Source: Methanolobus sp. ZRKC5 (GTDB taxonomy: Archaea > Halobacteriota > Methanosarcinia > Methanosarcinales > Methanosarcinaceae). From it: a stretch of DNA of 64,000 nt. This document shows, in pieces, positions 40,712 to 53,187 of the stretch. The DNA lies in contig NZ_CP151792.1 of NCBI RefSeq assembly GCF_038446525.1, positions 2,728,001 to 2,792,000 on the forward strand. The letters run 5' to 3'. The position numbers were made by a program, and so were the translations under genes. A model generated the notes under the pieces. That model saw nothing but the letters and a program-made list of their open reading frames with translations, made no database searches and was not told the origin of the DNA. How positions within the stretch are numbered: the stretch's first letter is position 1; each line of letters starts with the position of its first letter.

Positions 40712-40733
40712 GAGTAAGTTAGTTAACTTACTC
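40712..40733 (-). terminator. terminator overlapping the stop of the downstream PEF-CTERM gene
   Basis: GAGTAAGTT at 40712-40720 pairs with AACTTACTC at 40725-40733, with the stop codon inside the stem. On the minus strand a T-rich tail follows. The neighbouring paralogue has the same hairpin, so the terminator was duplicated with the gene. Confidence 0.65.
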
Positions 40734-41240
40734 TTCTTTGCGGCGCTGCATGAAGAATGCAAGACCGAGAATTGCAGCTACTGGAAGCGCAATAGTTGGG
40801 AATTCTGAGATTGATTCTACATATCTTGATGCTGAATCTATTTCTGTACTGGCAAGTACTGGGCCTGCACCAATGCTTATTCTGTAGATTGTTCCTACTG
40901 GTGCACTAGCATTGAGTGACACTGTTATTACGCCTACATCTGTGTATGATGTTGCAAGCGGTACTGTTACATTAGCAGGTGTAGTTATGTTTATATCAGT
41001 TGTTGCTCCTGGGCCTGATATAACAGCTACTTGTGTCGCGTATGGGAGTACAAGGCCTTGTTCTACGGAGCTGATGGCTGTCATTCTGTAACTGAGGGTT
41101 ATACTGTCGCCTGGTTTAAGTGTCAAATCACCTATGGCTGCAGTTCCTGTTGCGTCCCATATGTCTGCGGTATATGGGGTTGCAGATGCTGTTCCTACAA
41201 ACAGTGCAATCAATGCGATAAGTAATGGTAGTTTCTTCAT
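40728..41240 (-). CDS. small PEF-CTERM-type surface protein, variant motif SEF
   Basis: Secreted protein of 170 aa, anchored or processed by an archaeosortase. Signal peptide MKKLPLLIALIALFVGTASA, then a single beta-rich domain (TLKPGDSITLSYRMTAISSV, TDVGVITVSLNASAPVGTIY), a linker, and the C-terminal tripartite sorting signal: SEFPTIALPVAAILGLAFF, then MQRRKEE. The hallmark Pro of PEF is Ser here. AGGAGTGG six bases before the ATG at 41240 fixes the start; an in-frame ATG 18 codons further up has no such motif and would spoil the signal peptide. It is a tandem duplicate of the next gene. Function of the family is unknown. Confidence 0.82.
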   Translation of the reverse strand: MKKLPLLIALIALFVGTASATPYTADIWDATGTAAIGDLTLKPGDSITLSYRMTAISSVEQGLVLPYATQVAVISGPGATTDINITTPANVTVPLATSYTDVGVITVSLNASAPVGTIYRISIGAGPVLASTEIDSASRYVESISEFPTIALPVAAILGLAFFMQRRKEE

Positions 41241-41392
41241 ATTTCCACTCCTAACAACTTTTATTGTTATTGGATGCATTCTTTTTTTTTGCATATATAG
41301 TATGAAGTAACTATCTTCTGTAACAAAATGTCTTAACTACTTGTACTCGAGCAGTTAAAAACAAGTTAAAAACAAGAATAAAAAAAGTATTG

Positions 41393-41414
41393 GAGTAAGT
41401 TGATTAACTTACTC
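41393..41414 (-). terminator. terminator overlapping the stop of the upstream PEF-CTERM gene
   Basis: GAGTAAGTT at 41393-41401 pairs with AACTTACTC at 41406-41414, enclosing GATT, and on the minus strand is followed by a T7 run. It is nearly identical to the hairpin behind the sister gene. Confidence 0.7.
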
Positions 41415-41921
41415 TTCCTTGCGGCGCTGCATGAAGAATGCAAGACCAAGGATTGCAGCTACTGGGAGTGCAATTGTTGGGAATTCTGGTATTGATTCTA
41501 CGTATCTTGATGCTGAATCTATTTCTGTGCTGGCAAGTACTGGGCCTGCACCAATGCTTATTCTGTATATTGTGTGTAGTGGTGCATTAGCATTGAGTGA
41601 CACTGTTATTACGCCTACATCTGTGTATGATGTTGCAAGCGGAACTACTACATTAGCAGGTGTGGTTATTGTTATGTCACTTGCTGCTCCAGTGCCTGAT
41701 ACGACAGCTACTTGTGTCACATATGGAAGAACAAGGCCTTGTTCTACAGGACTTATATCTGTCATTCTGTAACTAAGGGTTATGCTGTCCCCTGGCTTCA
41801 GTGCAAGGTCTCCAACTGGTGCTGTTCCTGCTGCATTAAATATGTCTGCGGTGTAGGGGTTTGCAGCTGCAACACCCATCATGCTTATTGCTACTAGCAA
41901 TACCAATATAATTTTCTTCAT
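41409..41921 (-). CDS. small PEF-CTERM surface protein
   Basis: Sister of the gene at 40728-41240, also 170 aa. Signal peptide MKKIILVLLVAISMMGVAAA, the same beta-rich domain (LALKPGDSITLSYRMTDISP, TDVGVITVSLNANAPLHTIY), and a complete PEF-CTERM signal: IPEFPTIALPVAAIL, hydrophobic helix, MQRRKEE. AGGTGG stands before the ATG. The two copies differ mainly in the first 60 residues; the last ~60 are nearly identical, so the duplication is recent or kept alike by gene conversion. The archaeosortase gene at 46055-46882 is the likely processing enzyme. Confidence 0.87.
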   Translation of the reverse strand: MKKIILVLLVAISMMGVAAANPYTADIFNAAGTAPVGDLALKPGDSITLSYRMTDISPVEQGLVLPYVTQVAVVSGTGAASDITITTPANVVVPLATSYTDVGVITVSLNANAPLHTIYRISIGAGPVLASTEIDSASRYVESIPEFPTIALPVAAILGLAFFMQRRKEE

Positions 41922-42046
41922 TTTCGTACCACCTTTTTTAATTAGGATTATTACTAATTAAAGTTCCTTATTGTCTCACTCTTATTTATACATTTGTAAA
42001 AACGCTGCGATGACATTATGATCCTCATTATGAGGTGCGTGGTCTG

Positions 42047-44767
42047 TTATGTTGATACATAAAATGTCCATGTTTCCACAGCAGTATTTCCGGCCTGATC
42101 GGTGACACTCAGGCGGACATCTACCGCACCATTCTCTAATCCTACAGCATTGTAGGTAATAGAACTGTAATCTATTTCGGCATCATCAGTTACATCAACT
42201 CCATTTACCTGAAAAGCTATTTTCGTTTTATCAATGCCTGCACGATCATCTGAGTAAGAAGCCCTGATAGATGGATTGCCTGTATTCACTGTTTCGCCAT
42301 CATCGGGGCTTAAACTTTTAATGGTCGGGTCGACCCTGTCAATGATGAATGTCTCTTCTTCATACAAGCTTAGGGAATCCACTGTTTTTGCAGTAGTTTT
42401 AACCCGTGCTGTGCCATCACGTATACTATAATCCAGATCCTTATCCTCTGTTGTGGCTGTGTATGTATATTCATTATCTGATGAACCTTCAAAGGTCACA
42501 TCCAGTTTATAGCCATATCTATCTTGTACTATCACAGTTGGTTCTTCCTTAAGGGCCGTAGAGGAAGTAATGGTAATTTCTACATCATCTGATGTTTTTT
42601 CAGGATTGATGTCTATTGTTAGTTCTTCCAGTGATTCATCGGTGTATAAGCTTCCAAATGTATAGGCTGTATTATTGGCATAGTCCTTTGCAGTGACTTC
42701 TATATTGTAATTATCCTGCAATTTTACAGTGTATTTAGTAGTCCATATTATGTTGTCTGTTGTTGCAAGCTTTAAGGACTCAGAATTGCCAAATGTCCAT
42801 GGTATTATCTTACATTCCATTTCCATCAAAGGCTTGCTTGATGTCACAGTTAGGTATGTGGTATCACTGGTGGGGTTTGGCGTGATGTCGAGTTCGATTG
42901 TTGGTGCAGTGATGTCAACTTTTGTACTTGTGTCGGATACTGCATGTTCCATTTCTTCATTCAGGGCGTTGTCAACTGCTTTTGATCTGAAGTAATATGT
43001 TTCACCTTGTTTTCCTTCAAACTCTGCGGAAATTGCTGTAGTTTTACTAATCCACCTATTCCAGTTCGTGCCGTCTGTGCTGTAATCTATGTCATAGTAA
43101 TAAATACCTGAACCTTCATCGGTTCCGTTCCAACTTACTGTAAATTTATTATTGCCAACACTTGGGACTAAGGTGAGCACTTTGGATATCGGAAGGTCAA
43201 ATTCTACAGTGTTATCATCTTTGACGTATGGGGATAAAGCTGACAGTGGCATGAAACTTACTTCATCAATAGCAAATTCAATCGTTTTAAGGTCCAAATT
43301 ACGGTTCTGTGCTAAAACAAATGAGATTGTATTTTTACCTTCCTGTATTGTAACAGGTAGCATCAGATGCTGCCATCCTTCGTCACCGTTTATTCCTTCT
43401 GACCATACTATCACATCATTGAGCAATACTCTCTTGTATTGTGACTCTTCTTTATCCGGAGTTCCCTTTGCATAGTTGTCCTTCATGTAAGCGGAAAGCA
43501 GTACATCCTGTGTTCTGTTACTGTAGATCTCCTGCTGAAGGTTATACTGGTCATAACCCCATTGTCCCATGTTTCCTTCAAAGGTGCTATTGATCACAAA
43601 TGCCTTGGATGAATTGATTCCAGACTCGTTCAGGTAATGTCCTGTTACTGATGTCTCGTTGCTTGAAATAAATGTCCATCCTTCATCCGTTTCCATATCT
43701 GGGTTACTAAGTTGTATGAAATCGATGGTTGCAGAATTTGTAGTTTCAACGACCTCAGTACTTATCATCTGAGTCACCCAGAGATGTGCTGATCTGTATG
43801 CGAAATTTCCAACTTCATCTTTGTACAGGGCAAACTCAAGTTTCTGTCTTTCCTGCTTGAATTTTGTTGGGGTTAGCACAAGTTCCTGTTCCCACTTATC
43901 TTCGTGTCTAAGGGTTACTTCAATCTCATCCAGTACGATGCCATCCAGTTTTGCTTGTAGTATGTAGTTCACATCAGCATGTTCGTAGTTTTCTATACCT
44001 GCTATTATGTGGAGGGGATTTGATGTGGAAATATTCTCAGGATAGTTCTCAGCTTTTCCATCCGGGCCAAGGATGTAAAGTGCTGTGAATGTTTCTTTTT
44101 CCCGGGTTGCCTTTGCATAGGCGAACATGGCGCCTGCAATAATTATGGAAAGCACCATTGCGATCATAAGGGCTTTTGTGATCTCCGGGGCTATTTTTTT
44201 TGTATTGAGCTCAGTTGGAGTCGCACGGTTCTTTTTACGCACTGAAGATATCTTTTTTCTATTGCTTGCAGAGAATCTTTTATCAATTTCTGTGTTTTGA
44301 TGCTTAGTCTCTTCAACTTCTGCATGGATCTCCTCATCTGAATTCAGTGACTGGATAAAGGCACTGTATGAAAAGCTGAATTGTTCATCTTCAGGAAGGC
44401 GTTTTCTGGAAAGATATGTCAGAAGTACAAAGATAACTGTAAGAATCACAAGTGATATTGTTATTGAATTTGGTCTGAATTTCCATTCTGTAAGGCTGAC
44501 GATAAAACCATCGAAGACCATTATCATAATACTGAAACCAACGCTCAGGGTGAATCGCTCTATTTCGGATATCTCTTTGTTACTCGGGAACAGGGCTGAC
44601 ATGAAGGCATATCCTGGTATGAAAAATATGATCAATAAAGCAAAGAGTATCCTTATTAGTGCTATCTCGTTAAATGGGGGGAAGAGGATGAATATGATTG
44701 ATAGTAACGATGCTACTAATAATAGTTTAAGATCCTGGGTATATGTGTATTTATTGGGGCCGAGCAT
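42047..44767 (-). CDS. DUF1616 membrane protein with large Ig-like ectodomain
   Basis: A 906-residue surface protein. The first ~125 residues are four hydrophobic helices with FIPGYAFMSALFPSNKEISEIERFTLSVG-type text (GYAFMSALFP, EIERFTLSVGFSI), the DUF1616 signature. A charged cytoplasmic loop follows (about 130-195), then another helix near 200 and a long extracellular part. The ectodomain includes a DUF1616-type domain (ETFTALYILGPDGKAENYPE), a carbohydrate-binding-like jelly roll with NPDMETDEGWTFISSNETS, a fibronectin III-like unit (DYSTDGTNWNRWISKT) and Ig-like repeats to the C-terminus (GNTAVETWTFYVST). No sorting signal at its end. It probably displays binding modules at the cell surface; the ligand is unknown. 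Confidence 0.8.
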   Translation of the reverse strand: MLGPNKYTYTQDLKLLLVASLLSIIFILFPPFNEIALIRILFALLIIFFIPGYAFMSALFPSNKEISEIERFTLSVGFSIMIMVFDGFIVSLTEWKFRPNSITISLVILTVIFVLLTYLSRKRLPEDEQFSFSYSAFIQSLNSDEEIHAEVEETKHQNTEIDKRFSASNRKKISSVRKKNRATPTELNTKKIAPEITKALMIAMVLSIIIAGAMFAYAKATREKETFTALYILGPDGKAENYPENISTSNPLHIIAGIENYEHADVNYILQAKLDGIVLDEIEVTLRHEDKWEQELVLTPTKFKQERQKLEFALYKDEVGNFAYRSAHLWVTQMISTEVVETTNSATIDFIQLSNPDMETDEGWTFISSNETSVTGHYLNESGINSSKAFVINSTFEGNMGQWGYDQYNLQQEIYSNRTQDVLLSAYMKDNYAKGTPDKEESQYKRVLLNDVIVWSEGINGDEGWQHLMLPVTIQEGKNTISFVLAQNRNLDLKTIEFAIDEVSFMPLSALSPYVKDDNTVEFDLPISKVLTLVPSVGNNKFTVSWNGTDEGSGIYYYDIDYSTDGTNWNRWISKTTAISAEFEGKQGETYYFRSKAVDNALNEEMEHAVSDTSTKVDITAPTIELDITPNPTSDTTYLTVTSSKPLMEMECKIIPWTFGNSESLKLATTDNIIWTTKYTVKLQDNYNIEVTAKDYANNTAYTFGSLYTDESLEELTIDINPEKTSDDVEITITSSTALKEEPTVIVQDRYGYKLDVTFEGSSDNEYTYTATTEDKDLDYSIRDGTARVKTTAKTVDSLSLYEEETFIIDRVDPTIKSLSPDDGETVNTGNPSIRASYSDDRAGIDKTKIAFQVNGVDVTDDAEIDYSSITYNAVGLENGAVDVRLSVTDQAGNTAVETWTFYVST

Positions 44768-44929
44768 CTGGTCACGAGTTCCTTGTGGGTGATTAATATA
44801 TAATGAATTATTTATGAATTTAGTGTAATTATTTGCTAAAATATATAAGTATAGGGTTCTATTATATTACAGCTTCTTAATACAGGTACATTTCAAATAA
44901 ACTAAAGTAAAATACAAAGAGGGTTCTCT

Positions 44930-45790
44930 ATTAAAAATAAGGTATGGATATATTTTCTGTTTTTCATAGTCTTTCTGCCCATAGTCTCTCTGATATTCTA
45001 TCTTGGAGGTTCCATGGCTGGGTTAGTAAGCTTGCTTGTTATTTATGTGTTAAGCAGGCAAATCTATCTTTCAGCTTCCAAATTAATCATGAGGTGGTAC
45101 GGATGTGAATATATGTCTCCCACAGAATATTCAGATTTACACTATATATTGAATGAACTTTCAGAAAAGTTTTCTATAGAATGCCCAAAGAGTCATATAT
45201 TTGATTCATCGACTCCAATTGTCTTTACAGTAGGTTCCAAAAAAAAATATGACATTGTAATGTCCTATGGACTTCTGGAACTTTTAAATAATGATGAATT
45301 GGAGGCTATGCTCGCACGTGAGATGGCACGTATCTCCGAGGGAAATGTGTCCCATAACACTTTTGTGGCCTTTGTTGCAGGTATCATTGCTTCTTTCTCC
45401 ACGGTCGCCATGTGGATGTCCATGCTTGGAGGTTTCGGGCAGGAGGGAGATCCTGTACCCAAGTTCATACGGTTTGTCGCAATGGGTCTGGTAATGCTCC
45501 CTGCTGCTCTGATCGTATACATTGGATCGGTGGATTCAACTTTACATTCAGATATAGTGGCTGTCAGGACACTGGGAAGCAAACAGTATCTTGCTTCAGC
45601 CCTGAAAAGGGTGTATAACGACATTAATCTGAATTCTGTTGAATATTTCAATCCCGGTCATGTTCATCTTTTTGCAATGAATCCTGTTAAGGTGAATTCA
45701 CTTTATGATATCCATCTATCTTTATTTGAGGCAAAACTGGATCTTCGGCAGCGCTTAAAGGCCGTTGACGGAGTAGATATACTGAATTGA
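44930..45790 (+). CDS. HtpX/M48-like membrane protein without zinc ligands
   Basis: Related to the HtpX membrane metalloprotease: N-terminal helix VWIYFLFFIVFLPIVSLIFY, LGGSMAGLVSLLVIYVLSRQ, then YMSPTEYSDLHYILNELSE and VMSYGLLELLNNDELEAML. The zinc motif HExxH should follow, but the sequence reads AREMARISEGNV, so both His are Arg; the third ligand (E of ExxAD) is also absent in STLHSDIVAV. It is therefore probably not a protease. The first TM helix lies upstream of the first ATG (45014, with GGAGGT just before it). The open frame runs back to about 44921 and offers only ATT at 44930, six bases after AGAGGG. Start is ambiguous: 44930 by homology, 45014 by codon. It is followed after nine bases by a two-helix protein. 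Confidence 0.7.
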   Translation: MKNKVWIYFLFFIVFLPIVSLIFYLGGSMAGLVSLLVIYVLSRQIYLSASKLIMRWYGCEYMSPTEYSDLHYILNELSEKFSIECPKSHIFDSSTPIVFTVGSKKKYDIVMSYGLLELLNNDELEAMLAREMARISEGNVSHNTFVAFVAGIIASFSTVAMWMSMLGGFGQEGDPVPKFIRFVAMGLVMLPAALIVYIGSVDSTLHSDIVAVRTLGSKQYLASALKRVYNDINLNSVEYFNPGHVHLFAMNPVKVNSLYDIHLSLFEAKLDLRQRLKAVDGVDILN

Positions 45791-45799
45791 GGTACTATC

Positions 45800-46036
45800 A
45801 TGTTCTCTGAGATAAATTATCTTTACACAAGTCTTGCGGACTGGCAAAAAGCACTGATGTTCAGCTTTATTTCCTACGCTGTGGTTCTTTTTGGTATCAT
45901 TGTAGCCATTACATTTATACTGAAGGATTTCAAGTTCCTTCTTGTATTCGGTATCACTTTTGTATATATGGGTGGCCTGACAGTTACTATTTTTGTAACC
46001 AGGCGAATATTCAAAAAAAGGTTGATAGAACGCTGA
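45800..46036 (+). CDS. small two-helix membrane protein
   Basis: A 78-residue protein with two transmembrane segments (ALMFSFISYAVVLFGIIVAI and FLLVFGITFVYMGGLTVTIF) and a basic end (TRRIFKKRLIER). No family recognised. It starts nine bases after the HtpX-like pseudoprotease gene, so the two are one operon and may form a complex (inference). It converges on the archaeosortase gene, with 18 bases between the stops. Confidence 0.65.
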   Translation: MFSEINYLYTSLADWQKALMFSFISYAVVLFGIIVAITFILKDFKFLLVFGITFVYMGGLTVTIFVTRRIFKKRLIER

Positions 46037-46054
46037 TCGTTCTTCATATGTTTT

Positions 46055-46882
46055 TCATTTCTTCTTGTTCATGATGTACATTATACCGCCTGCGGTCAGG
46101 GCGAAGATAATCCATCCTATATGTGTGTGGACAATCATCATCACATCCATACCATAAAGGTACGCTGTAATGTATAGTATTATTACCCTAACAAGATTTG
46201 CAAGGTATGCGACCAATACTGCCAGTCCAAGAAGCCTTAAAGATTGACTGATATCCATTCTTTCAATCCTTGAATATCCTGCAACTATGCCTATGAGCAA
46301 GAACATAGAGTAAAGGCCTGAGCATGGTCCGCCAATGACAATAGTCATGGGTTCGGCTCCGTATAGGATTACAGTCTCAGTTGATATAATTTCTACAGGG
46401 ATGCCAAAGTATTTTATGATGGAAACTGTTGGCATAAGCACAAAATAATGGTCGAAGATATGCAGGAAATCAATCTTTAAGAGGCCAAAGGCTGAATAGA
46501 ATATCAGGTACAAGGCTGTGAAAATAGAAGAAATGTAGAACCCGAATTCTCCAAGCTGCTTTATGTCTTTCTTATTCGTTCCCATTGCAATAAGTGATGC
46601 TCCTACAAAGAATACTATTGAGTCGAGAGTGCCTATGTTGCTCTTGTTGATAAAGTTATATACGAGGTCGGCAGCTACGATGAACCCACCTATCAGGAAG
46701 TAGTTCCTAGAACTTTTTATGCCTTCAGTTCCTGTTATTTCTATTCTGGATATCAGTAGTGCTGCCAGAACAAAGAGTATGATTCCCATAATTGTGGATC
46801 CTTCACTGAGCTCGACTGTAGCTCCTGTGAAGAGTGCAAGTACTATTAGAATAATTATTATGTTTTTGTTTTCATTTTTCAT
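46055..46882 (-). CDS. archaeosortase (exosortase/archaeosortase family, PEF-CTERM type)
   Basis: Membrane cysteine transpeptidase-like enzyme that processes C-terminal sorting signals of surface proteins. The 275 residues form about eight transmembrane helices. The catalytic signature is intact: the Cys in VIGGPCSGLYSMFLL, the Arg in YLANLVRVIILYIT and the His in VHTHIGWIIFALTAG. Two PEF-CTERM substrates lie 4-5 kb away in the same strand orientation, so this is most likely the ArtC-type (PEF) enzyme; the assignment of the subtype is by context. The outer ISH3 element sits 294 bases before its start, in or beyond its promoter region. Confidence 0.85.
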   Translation of the reverse strand: MKNENKNIIIILIVLALFTGATVELSEGSTIMGIILFVLAALLISRIEITGTEGIKSSRNYFLIGGFIVAADLVYNFINKSNIGTLDSIVFFVGASLIAMGTNKKDIKQLGEFGFYISSIFTALYLIFYSAFGLLKIDFLHIFDHYFVLMPTVSIIKYFGIPVEIISTETVILYGAEPMTIVIGGPCSGLYSMFLLIGIVAGYSRIERMDISQSLRLLGLAVLVAYLANLVRVIILYITAYLYGMDVMMIVHTHIGWIIFALTAGGIMYIMNKKK

Positions 46883-48953
46883 TTTTTACCCTTCATTTAT
46901 GTAGTTATTTCTCTGGTCCTTAAATAAATATAACTTTACTGATGAGTGTGAATGAAAATATTTTTGTTAGGATAAAGTTGAGATTATTTTTTGGGGTGTA
47001 TAAAAACTTGTATTTCATATATCTCAATGGTTTAAATAACTATCAGGATGTTAAATCAATAAAACTATTTTATATAATTCTCTCTTCTATATGCATGAAG
47101 AAGCTGTGCTTCTCAGTTTTTGATTCTGCAAGAGTCATCATTTAAGTTTTGTTTTACTGATATTACCATATAAGTACAGTAGTTCGCTAATTTTGACTAC
47201 TTAACCTCACCAATGCTCTGCGATAGTATTAATATGCAGCGAAAACGCCGCTCGATGTCATTTATAGCATTCAATTCAAGGACCAATCCTAGAGTTGAAT
47301 TGAGACCAAAACAATGTATTGAAACTGTTCTAAACCTCTTACTAATCATATCAACATCAAGATCAATGGTTCACTTGACCGTAAAGACCTGTTTTGCACT
47401 GCCATATGCATGGCAGTGGACAATAGTCCAGTTCATTCCACATCAAAATATTACCAAGAGATTCCTTGTGAAACATCTTTAAGACATCATCTTAAAAAAA
47501 TAAATCTTGGGCTCTGTAGAAAACCTACTTCCAATTTTATTTTGACATCATAATTTAAAAAGGATAAATCCCCTGAGTATTACTTGCGACAGAAACACAA
47601 AAGGGGATGATTGTGTTTTGCCTAATAAGTACTTAAAGTTTGTTGATACAGCGCTAGCTGTATCAGGAAACTCACATCTTCAGATTTATAGTTGTAAATA
47701 TTCTAAAAGAAAATACACTCAACACCAGCTATTGACATTGATTTTGTTGAAAGAATACATCAATGAGGATTATCGGGATATAGTTGAAATTGTAGAATTA
47801 ATGGATAAAGTCAAAGAGAGAATTAGACTTAAACAGGTAACACATTTCACTACTCTTCATAAATTCATTACAAGATTGAATTCAATCTATTTTAGTGGAT
47901 TGTTGCAGCAAACACTAAAACTGTTTTATTCTCATGGAGAGATGATAGAAATTACTGCTATTGATTCAAGTGGGTTTACTAGTGGCCATTGTAGCTACTA
48001 TTATTCATGGAGGACAGGAAAGAAGCGTAGATCATTCTTGAAAACTAGTATTTCCATCGATACTGGAAAATTCATCATTACTGGTTTTAAGATACCAGGT
48101 AAACCTGTGCATGATGCAAAGCATGCGATGAAATTACTGAAATAATGCCATAAAACTCGCAAATCGAAGTACTACGTGATGGATAAAAGATACGATTCAG
48201 AAGACATACATTTGCTAGCAAAAGATAACCTCCAAGCAATAGCTATGATTCTGCTAAGACAGAGAAAAAGAAAGAAAATCAAAGGAAAATACCGTAGAAA
48301 AATGGTATGTGAATTTGATGAGGAATTGTATCATAACAGGAATCTGGTAGAAACGATGTTTTCTGTTCTGAAAAGAAAATACGGGAAAGAAATCAGAGCA
48401 AAAGTGTGACAAGAAGTTACAATATGAATTGCTTAACAGCTATTCCTTCCATTCGGGATAATCCTACTGTGGGATGCATAGAATGGTAACATCATTGTGT
48501 TAAGCTCACAGGACAATGTGGAAAGCAAGGAATTCCAATCCTTGACTATCTGCTAGGATAAGGAAACTATGAAGAGTATAATGCAAATCATCGTAAGGGT
48601 CGTTATGATTGATAAGCGAAATGGAATGATACGCTTAGACCAAAAGGTATGGAATCAGGCCATAATGGTTTTTTGCACATTATGGAGAATGGACACAGAT
48701 TCCCGGCCTATAGATGGCTTCTAAGGTTTCCGTGATTATTCATATTATAGAACTTGGTAAGTCCCATGTGCTCCTGTAAAAAAAAAAAAAAGGTAGTTAA
48801 TTCGTGAGAATGAACAATAGCACAGGGGATAAAGGAAACGGTAGAAAGCAAATGGCAGTCTGTAATGGAGTGCATAGAGGTTCAAAATTTGCCTTGTCCC
48901 GAAAGGGAGCAGACTTACCGTAGGTGTTCTATTACATGAAAGGAGGCAAACTT

Positions 48954-50468
48954 ATGAATGCAAGATACTCGACTACACCATCAGGTGAGAGGCTTGCAGA
49001 CAATTCAATCCCATTCAAGTGGGAGGACATCGACTGGAAAACAGTCGAAGGGAACGTTAATGAGCTGCAAGCCCGAATTGTAAAAGCGGTTAGACAAAAG
49101 AAGTGGCATTTAGTTAAACGACTACAATACCTGCTTACCAATTCTTTTCATGCCAAATTATTGGCAGTAAAGAAAGTAACACAGAACAAAGGTAAAAGAA
49201 CAGCTGGAATCGATGGAGAAAAATGGACAACATCCAAATCTAAGATGAAAGCCGTTCTAGAACTGTCTGGTAAGAGCTACAAAGCTAAACCATTGAGAAG
49301 AATCTATATTGAGAAACAAGGAAAGAAGAAAAAACGACCATTAAGCATTCCTACAATGTACGATAGAGCAATGCAGGCATTATATGCTTTTGCTTTAAGC
49401 CCAATAGCAGAAACCACAGCAGACAGAACATCATTTGGATTCCGTAAATATCGAAGTTCAAAAGATGCAGAAGCTCAATTGTTCGCATGTCTGAGTAAAA
49501 GAAACTCTGCTCAATGGATTTTGGAAGGCGACATAAAAGGATGCTTTGATCATATAAATCACGAATGGCTCTTGAACAATATTCCTATGGACCGGTCAAT
49601 ACTAAAGCAATTCCTTAAAGCTGGTTTTGTGTATAATAGACATCTGAATCCCACCAAAGCAGGTACTGCTCAAGGTGGAATAATATCTCCAGTACTGGCA
49701 AACATCACATTGGACGGTATGAAAAATGCAATAGCATGCAAATATCATACAAACAGGAAGGGAACTATTAACAAAAAAAGTTATAATTCCCATAAAGTCA
49801 ATTTTGTGAGATACGCAGATGACTTTATCGTCACTGCTGATTCAGAGGAAGTGGCTAAAGATATTGCTGAGGTTATCAGACTATTCTTGAAAGATAGGGG
49901 TTTAGAACTATCTCGTGAGAAAACTCTTGTTTCACACATAGACGATGGATTTGACTTCTTGGGATGGAATTTCCGGAAATATAATGGTAAACTTCTAACC
50001 AAGCCCTCGAACAAATCTATTGAGAATATCACAAAAAGCATTAGCAACGTGATTAAGAAAGGTAAAGCTCGGTCTCAGAGTTCTCTCATTAAGGAACTCA
50101 ACCCTATTATCACTGGATGGAGCGAATATCACCGTTCAGTTGTCTCTAAAAATACGTTCAGTAAGCTTGATTCCAGATTATGGGATATGCTATGGACGTG
50201 GGCTAAAAGGCGGCATCCAGATAAATCACACCACTGGATAGTAGATAGATATTGGCATAGGGTAGGGTCAAGGAAATGGGTATTCTCCACAGAAGGGCTT
50301 AAACTCAAATCTTTTGCACATACAAAGATTGTAAGACATCCACGCATAAAAATGGATAAGAACCCATATGTAGACAAAGAATACTTTAAATGGAGAATAA
50401 GCTATCTGAGAAAACAGAAACTAGTGGCGTCGAAGCAAAATATCATGGAAAGTCTAACAACTGCCTGA
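48954..50468 (+). CDS. ltrA: group II intron reverse transcriptase/maturase
   Basis: Intron-encoded protein that helps splicing and copies the intron into new DNA sites. Residues about 60-360 are the reverse transcriptase: KGKRTAGIDGEKW, KKRPLSIPTMYDRAMQ, EGDIKGCFDHINH, GTAQGGIISPVLANI, and the catalytic VRYADDFIVTA. The maturase (X) domain follows (LIKELNPIITGWSEYHRSVV, LDSRLWDMLWTWAKRRHPDK). The protein stops at ESLTTA without an HNH endonuclease domain. I start at 48954, seven bases after AGGAGG, instead of the in-frame ATG at 48924. All key RT motifs look intact, so it could be active. Confidence 0.92.
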   Translation: MNARYSTTPSGERLADNSIPFKWEDIDWKTVEGNVNELQARIVKAVRQKKWHLVKRLQYLLTNSFHAKLLAVKKVTQNKGKRTAGIDGEKWTTSKSKMKAVLELSGKSYKAKPLRRIYIEKQGKKKKRPLSIPTMYDRAMQALYAFALSPIAETTADRTSFGFRKYRSSKDAEAQLFACLSKRNSAQWILEGDIKGCFDHINHEWLLNNIPMDRSILKQFLKAGFVYNRHLNPTKAGTAQGGIISPVLANITLDGMKNAIACKYHTNRKGTINKKSYNSHKVNFVRYADDFIVTADSEEVAKDIAEVIRLFLKDRGLELSREKTLVSHIDDGFDFLGWNFRKYNGKLLTKPSNKSIENITKSISNVIKKGKARSQSSLIKELNPIITGWSEYHRSVVSKNTFSKLDSRLWDMLWTWAKRRHPDKSHHWIVDRYWHRVGSRKWVFSTEGLKLKSFAHTKIVRHPRIKMDKNPYVDKEYFKWRISYLRKQKLVASKQNIMESLTTA

Positions 50469-50492
50469 TACTTAAAGGGTTATAGAATGCTT

Positions 50493-50526
50493 GAGCCGTA
50501 TGAAGAGAAATTTTCACGTACGGTTC
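50493..50526 (+). ncRNA. group II intron domain V
   Basis: A 34-base hairpin beginning GAGCCGTATGAAGAGAAA and ending CACGTACGGTTC, the conserved catalytic domain V of group II introns. Stem GAGCCGTA/TACGGTTC closes it. It lies 25 bases after the maturase stop and is followed by domain VI. Confidence 0.88.
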
Positions 50527-51735
50527 TTAGAAGAGGGAGGGCGAGTAATCGCTCTTTCTTATTCGACAAGTACTGGAATCAAGCAAAAGAGATCAAATTC
50601 AAGTTATTAGTGCATAACCTTGACAGGTATGTCAAGGTTGTACTTATTATGCAAATGAGGATTTCTACAGAGCTAAATCTTGAAGAGCTTATCCAGGTAA
50701 ATAGAAGTATTCTACTTCAAGGTCCAATAAGTGATATGAGACCTGAGAAAAAGTATGAATTCGCTATCGATTTTACCAATGACCCTTATTACGGAATAAT
50801 AGACTCGTCCAATGAAAACTATGTGATAAGCATTCAGGCTAAAAAGTCAACAAACTCTTTTTATTCGTATGTTTCCCTGTCTATCATAAACAAGAACGAA
50901 AGATACACTATCGCTGTCCTTCCTGTTGAGAGGAACAAAACAAAAGTTGATTATCTCACCTATTTCACAGATATAACTAAGTATCTAAACTTCAGCATCA
51001 AGGTCCTTTGTTTATATAGGGAGTTCTATTCAGTTAATGTGTTTGAATTCTTACAGAACAAAGAAATTCCTCATATCACACATGTAGTACGAAAGGGAAA
51101 AGAGATCAAGCAATTACTTATTGGGAGAAAGGTGAGATATGCTAAATATGAGATGAAGAATGCTCAGAAGAAAGAAGTTCGGTTAGATATTGTTATTGAC
51201 GTCAAGTATCTGAAAGGTAAAAGGGATAAAAATGGATGTAAGAGCCTTGTTTTTGTAGTTTATGGTATTAAGTGGGATCCCAGAAAGGTTAGCACAGTCT
51301 ACAGAAAACTGTTTGCTATCGAATCATCGTACAGGATGCGAAATATCGTAAAACCAAAAACGTCAACAAGAAACGTTACTTTCAGGTACTTCTTTACGTT
51401 AATATCGTTCCTGCTAAAAAATGCATGGCTCTGCCTCCATAAAAAGCATTTCACAGTAGTAAAACCAGGTCCAATAACTATCGATGAAGACAAATTTAGG
51501 TTTGATAGGTTTATCCTGTTTGTTGGGGGATGGCTTAGAAGAAAGTTGAAGATTCAGTTAGTTGTGCAGTGTTTGAGGTAGAATAATTGCGATAAAAGCA
51601 AAGGGGAGAGAAAATTAGCGAACTACTGAAGTAGGAATATCTTTAAAAAGATAAATATCTATTACTATACTACTATATGGGATTTTGTTCTCATTGTTTG
51701 TGAAAATGTCTTAATAATTATTGATAGCAATTACT

Positions 51736-53187
51736 ATGTCTCTTAGGAAAAAAGCTTATAGTGGTATTTGGTGGGTAATTATATCTACTATATTTTCAAA
51801 ACTAATAAATTTACTAACAAACATATCTTTAGCAAGGCTTCTTGACCCTTCTCATTTTGGAATCGTTGCATTAGCTCTAGTTTTCATCAATTTTTTTGAA
51901 ACATTTCGTGATTTGGGCATAGGTTCAGCATTAATTCACAGATCAGATAATAATTCAATTGCACAAAATACTGCATTTTTCATTTTTCCTTTTGCAGCAG
52001 TATTTTTCTATATATTATGTTATTTAATTTCTCCATATGTAGCTCTTTTTTTTAAGAGTGATGGATTAGACCTTATTATAAAAGTATTGTCATTATCTCT
52101 TATTTTATGGTCTTTTGGAAATTTGCCAACAACTTTACTAGCAAAAGAACTTGAGTTTAAAAAATTGCTTTATCCTCAGATAGTCCCAAAATTGGGATAT
52201 GCACTTGTATCTATTGTATTGGCAATTCAAGGTTTTGGAGTTTGGAGCCTTGTTATTGGAAGAATTAGCCTGGAAATATTAAGTTTAATAATTGTTTGGC
52301 ATGTTATTGATTGGAGGCCAAAATTAGAATTTGATAAAAAAACTGCCGTAGAACTTTTAAAGTATGGTAAATATGTACTGGGTACGTCGTTGATTGCTTT
52401 TTTATCATCTGTGTTCGATGTTGTAGTAATAGGAAGGGAATTAGGGGCTGAAACATTAGGTTTTTATTCAATAGCACTAACAGTAGCAAGCTTTTTCACA
52501 ATACAAATATCTCATGTAATTTATCAAGTGGTGTTCCCTGTTTTTTCCAAACTTCAGCATGATATGGATAAAATGAAATCAGTATTTTTAAACTCTCTGA
52601 AATATCTCTCATTTTTCATTTTTCCTTCTGCAGCTGGAATAATTGTAGTCTCAAACCAATTTATTAATGTTTTTTATGGTAGTAAATGGCTTCCTGCTGT
52701 TCCTCTTATTCAAATATTGTGTATTTATGGTTCGGCTCAATCAATTTCGAAGGTAACATCTTCTGTATATTTGGCAAGTGGTACTCCTCATAAATCTACG
52801 ATGATAAATATTTTACATTTGTTTTTTATTATGATTTTAATATATCCACTTACTATTGCATACGGTGTTGTTGGGACGAGTTTGGCTGTAACAATTTCTT
52901 CAACGATATCTTTATTTTTTAGTTTGAATCAAGTTAAAAAAATACTATTATGTTCATACGCAACTATATTTAAGGTTTTAGTTTACCCTTTTGTGGGATC
53001 TATAGCAATGTTCATTTTTGTTATTTTAATACAAGAACTAATTTATTTGTATAGTGATATTTTTATTTTCATTGTGTCTATGATTAGCGGTATATCTTTT
53101 TATTTATTGTTTCTATTATGTGTGCAGTTTAAGGAAATTAAAACGATTGCTAATTATGTTTCAAATTATTTAATATTGAAGAGTTAG
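51736..53187 (+). CDS. polysaccharide flippase (Wzx-like, MOP superfamily)
   Basis: Flips lipid-linked oligosaccharide across the membrane. The 483 residues form about 12-14 hydrophobic helices and show the family opening LRKKAYSGIWWVIISTIFSK and RLLDPSHFGIVALALVF, and the later FDVVVIGRELGAETLGFYSI. No other domain. The ATG at 51736 is chosen over an in-frame TTG at 51721. It is the first gene of the polysaccharide cluster, 107 bases after the ISH3 element. The cluster is noticeably AT-rich, which fits acquisition by transfer. Confidence 0.87.
   Translation: MSLRKKAYSGIWWVIISTIFSKLINLLTNISLARLLDPSHFGIVALALVFINFFETFRDLGIGSALIHRSDNNSIAQNTAFFIFPFAAVFFYILCYLISPYVALFFKSDGLDLIIKVLSLSLILWSFGNLPTTLLAKELEFKKLLYPQIVPKLGYALVSIVLAIQGFGVWSLVIGRISLEILSLIIVWHVIDWRPKLEFDKKTAVELLKYGKYVLGTSLIAFLSSVFDVVVIGRELGAETLGFYSIALTVASFFTIQISHVIYQVVFPVFSKLQHDMDKMKSVFLNSLKYLSFFIFPSAAGIIVVSNQFINVFYGSKWLPAVPLIQILCIYGSAQSISKVTSSVYLASGTPHKSTMINILHLFFIMILIYPLTIAYGVVGTSLAVTISSTISLFFSLNQVKKILLCSYATIFKVLVYPFVGSIAMFIFVILIQELIYLYSDIFIFIVSMISGISFYLLFLLCVQFKEIKTIANYVSNYLILKS

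Follow-up and report, generated by a model that had tools for sequence, protein, structure and literature searches.

Archaeosortases are known as single enzymes, and no partner proteins of archaeosortase C (ArtC) are named in the literature that we searched. Does ArtC serve its PEF-CTERM substrates alone, or as one part of a larger membrane assembly? This question is raised by a locus at bases 40728–46882 of the window, by which we mean the whole analysed stretch of 64,000 nucleotides from Methanolobus sp. ZRKC5 (positions 2728001–2792000 of a 3.05-Mb single-contig archaeal genome). Here the ArtC gene lies together with genes for two PEF-CTERM proteins, a large DUF1616 protein, an HtpX-like protein of the M48 peptidase family, and a small membrane protein with two predicted helices. 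All the components named in the initial annotation were found in place, with matches to TIGR03024, PF07760, M48, and TIGR03762, and the HtpX-like protein has indeed lost its zinc ligands. With a probability of roughly 60%, we propose that the locus encodes a conserved four-protein PEF-CTERM sorting module together with a resident substrate, in which the HtpX-like, two-helix, and DUF1616 proteins present the substrate to ArtC.

ArtC and its conserved gene neighbourhood

The ArtC gene (46055–46882, minus strand, 275 residues) scored 344.9 bits against TIGR03762, whose cut-off is 100, and its residues C187, R232, and H252 are invariant across 18 aligned family members. Its closest named relatives belong to Methanolobus species and one related metagenome-assembled genome (MAG). 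The locus thus shares with the described archaeosortase C/PEF-CTERM system (TIGR03762/TIGR03024) an above-cut-off enzyme with the invariant Cys/Arg/His and a substrate signal composed of PEFP, a hydrophobic helix, and a basic tail. The known description, as far as the searched literature goes, consists of the enzyme and the signal; the HtpX-like, two-helix, and DUF1616 proteins are additional. One archaeal ArtC was also found in a MAG labelled Ruminiclostridium (L183), which is probably a misbinned contig.

The search for ArtC and the HtpX-like protein covered 120 genomes of the order; for ArtC, it was extended to 393 genomes of the phylum and to named genome contigs. Flanking sequence of up to 20 kb was read at the matches, and removal of duplicate ArtC proteins left 71 distinct ones. 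An HtpX-like gene lies within 10 kb of 52 of the 71, as does a DUF1616 gene (52/71), many of the contigs being short. When the count is restricted to the 44 loci flanked by 5 kb or more of contig on each side, the HtpX-like gene is present within 10 kb in 36, the two-helix gene in 37, and the DUF1616 gene in 37. The chance rate for such a neighbour is approximately 1–2%, estimated from two or three M48 genes per 3-Mb genome. The initial annotation would have been refuted had archaeosortase homologues elsewhere shown no association with these families; the association held. The conserved set occurs in Methanolobus, Methanococcoides, Methanosarcina, ANME-2, Methanoperedens, Argoarchaeum, and ANME-1 (Methanophagales), thereby spanning methane-making and methane-eating archaea, and the gene order is rearranged between distant families with the set retained.

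Presence and absence follow the same pattern. The window's family was sampled with 46 genomes: 18 carry both ArtC and the HtpX-like gene, 25 carry neither, one has only ArtC, and two have only the HtpX-like gene (Fisher p = 1.2e-9, a statistic that ignores relatedness). In group f3, the HtpX-like, small, and DUF1616 genes form a set located away from ArtC, and one genome of the window's family (L073/L074) has the three together and ArtC on another contig. We have very little doubt that these genes constitute a conserved functional module. The part of the initial proposal stating that the set works together is therefore strongly supported by the neighbourhood, the co-absence, and the gene fusions described below. 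Its statement that no joint role had been described for the set also holds within the searched literature, where archaeosortase and HtpX were not found as partners; the founding archaeosortase paper of 2012 lay outside this search, so a prior mention there is possible.

Zinc-site loss in the HtpX-like protein

The HtpX-like gene (44930–45790, plus strand) encodes 286 residues from a likely ATT start. The protein matches PF01435 (Peptidase_M48) with 36.6 bits (cut-off 20.3) and stays below the HtpX equivalog cut-off (best 93.7 bits vs 369). It shares the fold, four HtpX-type transmembrane (TM) segments, and the M48 profile match with HtpX (M48B) and Ste24/ZMPSTE24. It differs from them in forming a separate clade with repeated zinc loss and a DPAP loop, and in its links to other genes, positional with ArtC and both positional and by fusion with the two-helix protein. 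In the window, REMAR occupies the HExxH position and DSTLHSD the region of the third ligand (SREFxAD); all zinc ligands are lost.

A tree of 54 sequences, 51 of them module proteins, was calculated with the zinc-site columns left out, and it separated the module proteins from housekeeping HtpX with support of 100/100. The zinc ligands are complete in 19 of the 51 module proteins, among them every one of the seven Methanosarcina-type members and most of the ANME-1-type ones, and incomplete in the other 32, including all 13 Methanolobus-type sequences. The distribution of the two states requires a minimum of six changes (bootstrap range 6–7), five of which are unavoidable given the well-supported branches; two long branches come together in this tree, making the exact placements less sure than the number of changes. 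Because housekeeping HtpX is intact, the changes are most simply read as losses. The lost sites differ in their letters: RExxR in Methanolobus, CExxK in its sister group, RExxH in Methanococcoides-type species, HExxR or HExxL in ANME-2, YExxH in group f3, and HNxxQ or YNxxQ in Methanoperedens, where the third-ligand segment is gone.

The zinc-less gene is nevertheless under purifying selection. The ratio of nonsynonymous to synonymous substitution rates (Ka/Ks, Nei–Gojobori) is 0.15–0.35 in the tested zinc-less pairs, and that of a zinc-intact pair is 0.17. A loop between TM3 and TM4, GFGQxxDPAP (GFGQEGDPVP in the window), is conserved about equally in the zinc-less and intact groups, while the catalytic columns scatter. 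The DPAP motif is absent from the aligned housekeeping HtpX. From the established HtpX topology, which we take to apply here, the loop would lie outside and the M48 domain inside. It is likely that the HtpX-like protein of the window is now non-catalytic.

The start of this gene deserves attention, since annotation from ATG 45014 drops TM1. The coding sequence of the first helix is conserved from ATT 44930, upstream of that ATG, and the stretch between the two shows coding-type substitution (comparing the window with the other Methanolobus species, the ratio of nonsynonymous to synonymous changes, pN/pS, is about 0.4). Most Methanolobus and Methanococcoides-type species have no ATG, GTG, or TTG suitably placed upstream of the first helix. 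The ATT (ATC or ATA in a few species) stands six bases after GAGGG, a likely ribosome-binding site (44919–44923, plus strand) whose spacing is conserved across Methanolobus and Methanococcoides-like loci, and it is aligned with the Met of housekeeping HtpX. An in-frame TGA overlaps GAGGG in several species, and no upstream start is possible in those. Judging from these alignments, translation probably begins at ATT 44930. AUU start codons are rare in archaea. A literature search offered no direct precedent among the papers that it listed; the conserved ATT is possibly regulatory. As a separate observation, the HtpX-like gene is split into two open reading frames (ORFs) in one Methanosarcinaceae MAG (the same contig twice: L122 8598–9479 and L141 2573–3454).

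What could such a protein do? It might act as a clean-up protease for the C-terminal helix once this has been cut off, with the zinc-less copies being relics heading to loss. The intact HExxH and Glu in 19 of the 51 module members would suit this role, as would the M48 active site of HtpX, which is established to face the cytoplasm, where the basic signal tail ends. However, the 32 zinc-less members remain in the locus in several genera, with the low Ka/Ks values and the conserved loop described above, and relics are unlikely to survive the radiation of a genus. We regard this explanation as unlikely. The persistence of zinc-less members instead indicates that the role shared by the HtpX-like subunits of all lineages is not peptide cleavage.

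The protein might also sense unprocessed PEF-CTERM proteins or membrane stress, like the BlaR1-type membrane metalloproteases. A fold search does match BlaR1 (VIA Z 9.9, 155 aligned, root-mean-square deviation 4.7), the best conserved loop is the one placed outside by the HtpX topology, with the M48 domain inside, and the conserved near-cognate start suggests regulated expression. However, the BlaR1 match reflects the common gluzincin fold, no regulator gene was seen in the module, and zinc loss abolishes the known signalling output of BlaR1, which makes a sensor quite improbable. Retention of the general base Glu131 in 72% of the zinc-less members could hint at an enzyme working with another metal or another chemistry. 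The Methanoperedens members lose Glu131 as well as the third-ligand segment, however, and the lineage-specific letters reveal no new common motif; we consider this very unlikely.

The two-helix and DUF1616 partners and the substrates

The small gene (45800–46036, plus strand) encodes a membrane protein of 78 residues with a conserved TFxxKDF loop; profile searches assigned it to no family above cut-off. Methanosarcina-type, Argoarchaeum, and several ANME-1-type loci (L063–L069, L084, L102, L104, L106, L108, and L113) encode it as one polypeptide with the HtpX-like protein, and an ANME-2-type contig (L056) carries it as a fusion with DUF1616. The one-chain model of a fused Methanosarcina-type protein displays the Ste24/HtpX fold (predicted template-modelling score (pTM) 0.86; mean predicted local distance difference test 88), and fold searches with the fused orthologue placed Ste24/HtpX structures among its best matches. 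Compared with L077, the synonymous divergence of the window is 0.33 for the HtpX-like gene and 0.11 for the small gene, and 0.89 and 0.92 for the flanking ArtC and DUF1616 genes, respectively; the low values may reflect either recombination or constraint at the RNA level.

The DUF1616 protein (42047–44767, minus strand, 906 residues) scored 193 bits against PF07760 (gathering score 31.6) and carries Big_7/OmpL47-like repeats. It is composed of an N-terminal helix bundle, a further TM helix, an immunoglobulin (Ig)/CARDB-like ectodomain, and a long repeat-bearing ectodomain. The AlphaFold model of residues 1–345, poorer than that of the fused protein (pTM 0.48), shows the helix bundle, then a linker modelled with low confidence, a single helix, and an Ig-like domain at 226–337. 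Because the ectodomain part matched many Ig-type domains at similar Z, no function was assigned from its fold, and a sequence search for solved relatives of DUF1616 gave nothing significant. The sole mention of DUF1616 found in the literature search is an entry in a glycoproteomics list (PMC8241124).

DUF1616 also recurs beside two other archaeosortase subfamilies. In group f9, where a lower-scoring ArtC subfamily occurs, it is divided into two small genes for the membrane half and the ectodomain half (L115–L118, L120, L137, and L138). In Methanoperedens-type genomes, 13 short DUF1616 genes, for proteins of 300 residues, lie no more than 8 kb from a weak match to an archaeosortase (G096 C207, G104 C61, G094 C195, G012 C200, G048 C68, G072 C45, G074 C13 and C55, G064 C97 and C143, G056 C8, G084 C54, and G007 C29). 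Of the partners in the module, DUF1616 may be the most ancient, and the module provides this domain with its first functional context. For the window's family, the idea that short 300-residue DUF1616 proteins accompany archaeosortases found no support, none being seen near any archaeosortase.

The two substrate genes encode PEF-CTERM proteins of 170 residues, 137 of which are identical (81%). Copy a (40728–41240, minus strand; TIGR03024 31.6 bits, cut-off 23) starts at 41240, correcting 41294, and its sorting signal reads SEFP instead of PEFP. Copy b (41409–41921, minus strand) scored 38.5 bits, and its homologues adjoin the DUF1616 gene in most relatives. The genome of the window contains 14 PEF-CTERM matches scattered over the chromosome and a single ArtC. 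For this reason the locus looks like a general PEF-CTERM processing unit, and the idea of the initial annotation of an assembly line dedicated to a surface protein coat overreaches. Four genomes (G111, G113, G089, and G045) have PEF-CTERM proteins without a full-scoring ArtC, and these proteins may be served by another archaeosortase.

A model of PEF-CTERM sorting and points against it

In the proposed module, ArtC, a transpeptidase, would act by analogy with archaeosortase A, cutting at PEF and handing the protein over to a membrane acceptor. Archaeosortase A, which acts on PGF-CTERM proteins in Haloferax and anchors them to lipid, shares with ArtC the transpeptidase superfamily and the tripartite C-terminal signal; ArtC is nevertheless a different enzyme with a different signal. 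The HtpX-like and two-helix proteins would form a single membrane subunit that either holds the substrate helix or bridges ArtC to DUF1616. DUF1616 would bind this subunit and present its Ig-type ectodomain outside, where it may guide the exported substrate, and the subunits together would keep the C-terminal helix or the exported substrate beside ArtC. The zinc-intact HtpX-like proteins of Methanosarcina and most ANME-1 may additionally degrade the leftover C-terminal helix. A specific holding or hand-off role of the HtpX-like protein is a tentative assignment, to which we give slightly less than even odds. Membrane protease folds retained without catalysis are represented by iRhom and Derlin, which are thought to bind substrates; these have the rhomboid fold, not that of M48, and no homology to the HtpX-like protein.

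Several observations weigh against this model. The pTM of the fused protein is no test of an interface, and the contacts proposed among the HtpX-like protein, DUF1616, and ArtC are hypothetical. Two group f10 loci and a second Methanoperedens copy (L109, L110, and L139) have no partner nearby, the ArtC loci L089/L192 of Methanoperedens nitroreducens have DUF1616 only, and the f9 subfamily with its DUF1616 halves has no HtpX-like gene nearby. A Methanolobus genome (G105) has DUF1616 and PEF proteins, and no HtpX-like module gene was found in it genome-wide. Conversely, the HtpX-like gene is kept without ArtC in two genomes (L081 and L098). The ArtC loci lacking the HtpX-like gene indicate that this protein is not strictly required.

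The balance is even for the wider generalization that PEF-CTERM sorting is performed by a multi-subunit membrane machine, in which a recruited M48 protease was made into a dead subunit at least five times and DUF1616 serves as a general archaeosortase accessory. The retention of the HtpX-like protein in the module, in methane-making and methane-eating archaea and despite at least five losses of its zinc site, suggests a working sorting machine with a non-cutting protease part. Catalysis lost independently in a membrane protease whose position is conserved constitutes a clear natural experiment on how proteases become scaffolds. The three conserved partners are concrete gene targets in Methanosarcina, for which genetics is available.

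The weakest alternative, that the genes are mere neighbours in a common cell-surface island without joint action, draws on the frequent clustering of surface and polysaccharide genes and on ORFs resembling insertion sequences, introns, and polysaccharide flippases immediately to the right of the locus, but we rejected it as extremely improbable because the same set is retained in distant families despite rearranged order, the partners are co-absent from genomes without ArtC, genes of the set are fused, and the split locus L073/L074 keeps the HtpX-like, small, and DUF1616 genes as a unit. Visual inspection of the translations placed ORFs resembling transposases, group II intron reverse transcriptases, and polysaccharide flippases in the right flank itself (47618–53187).

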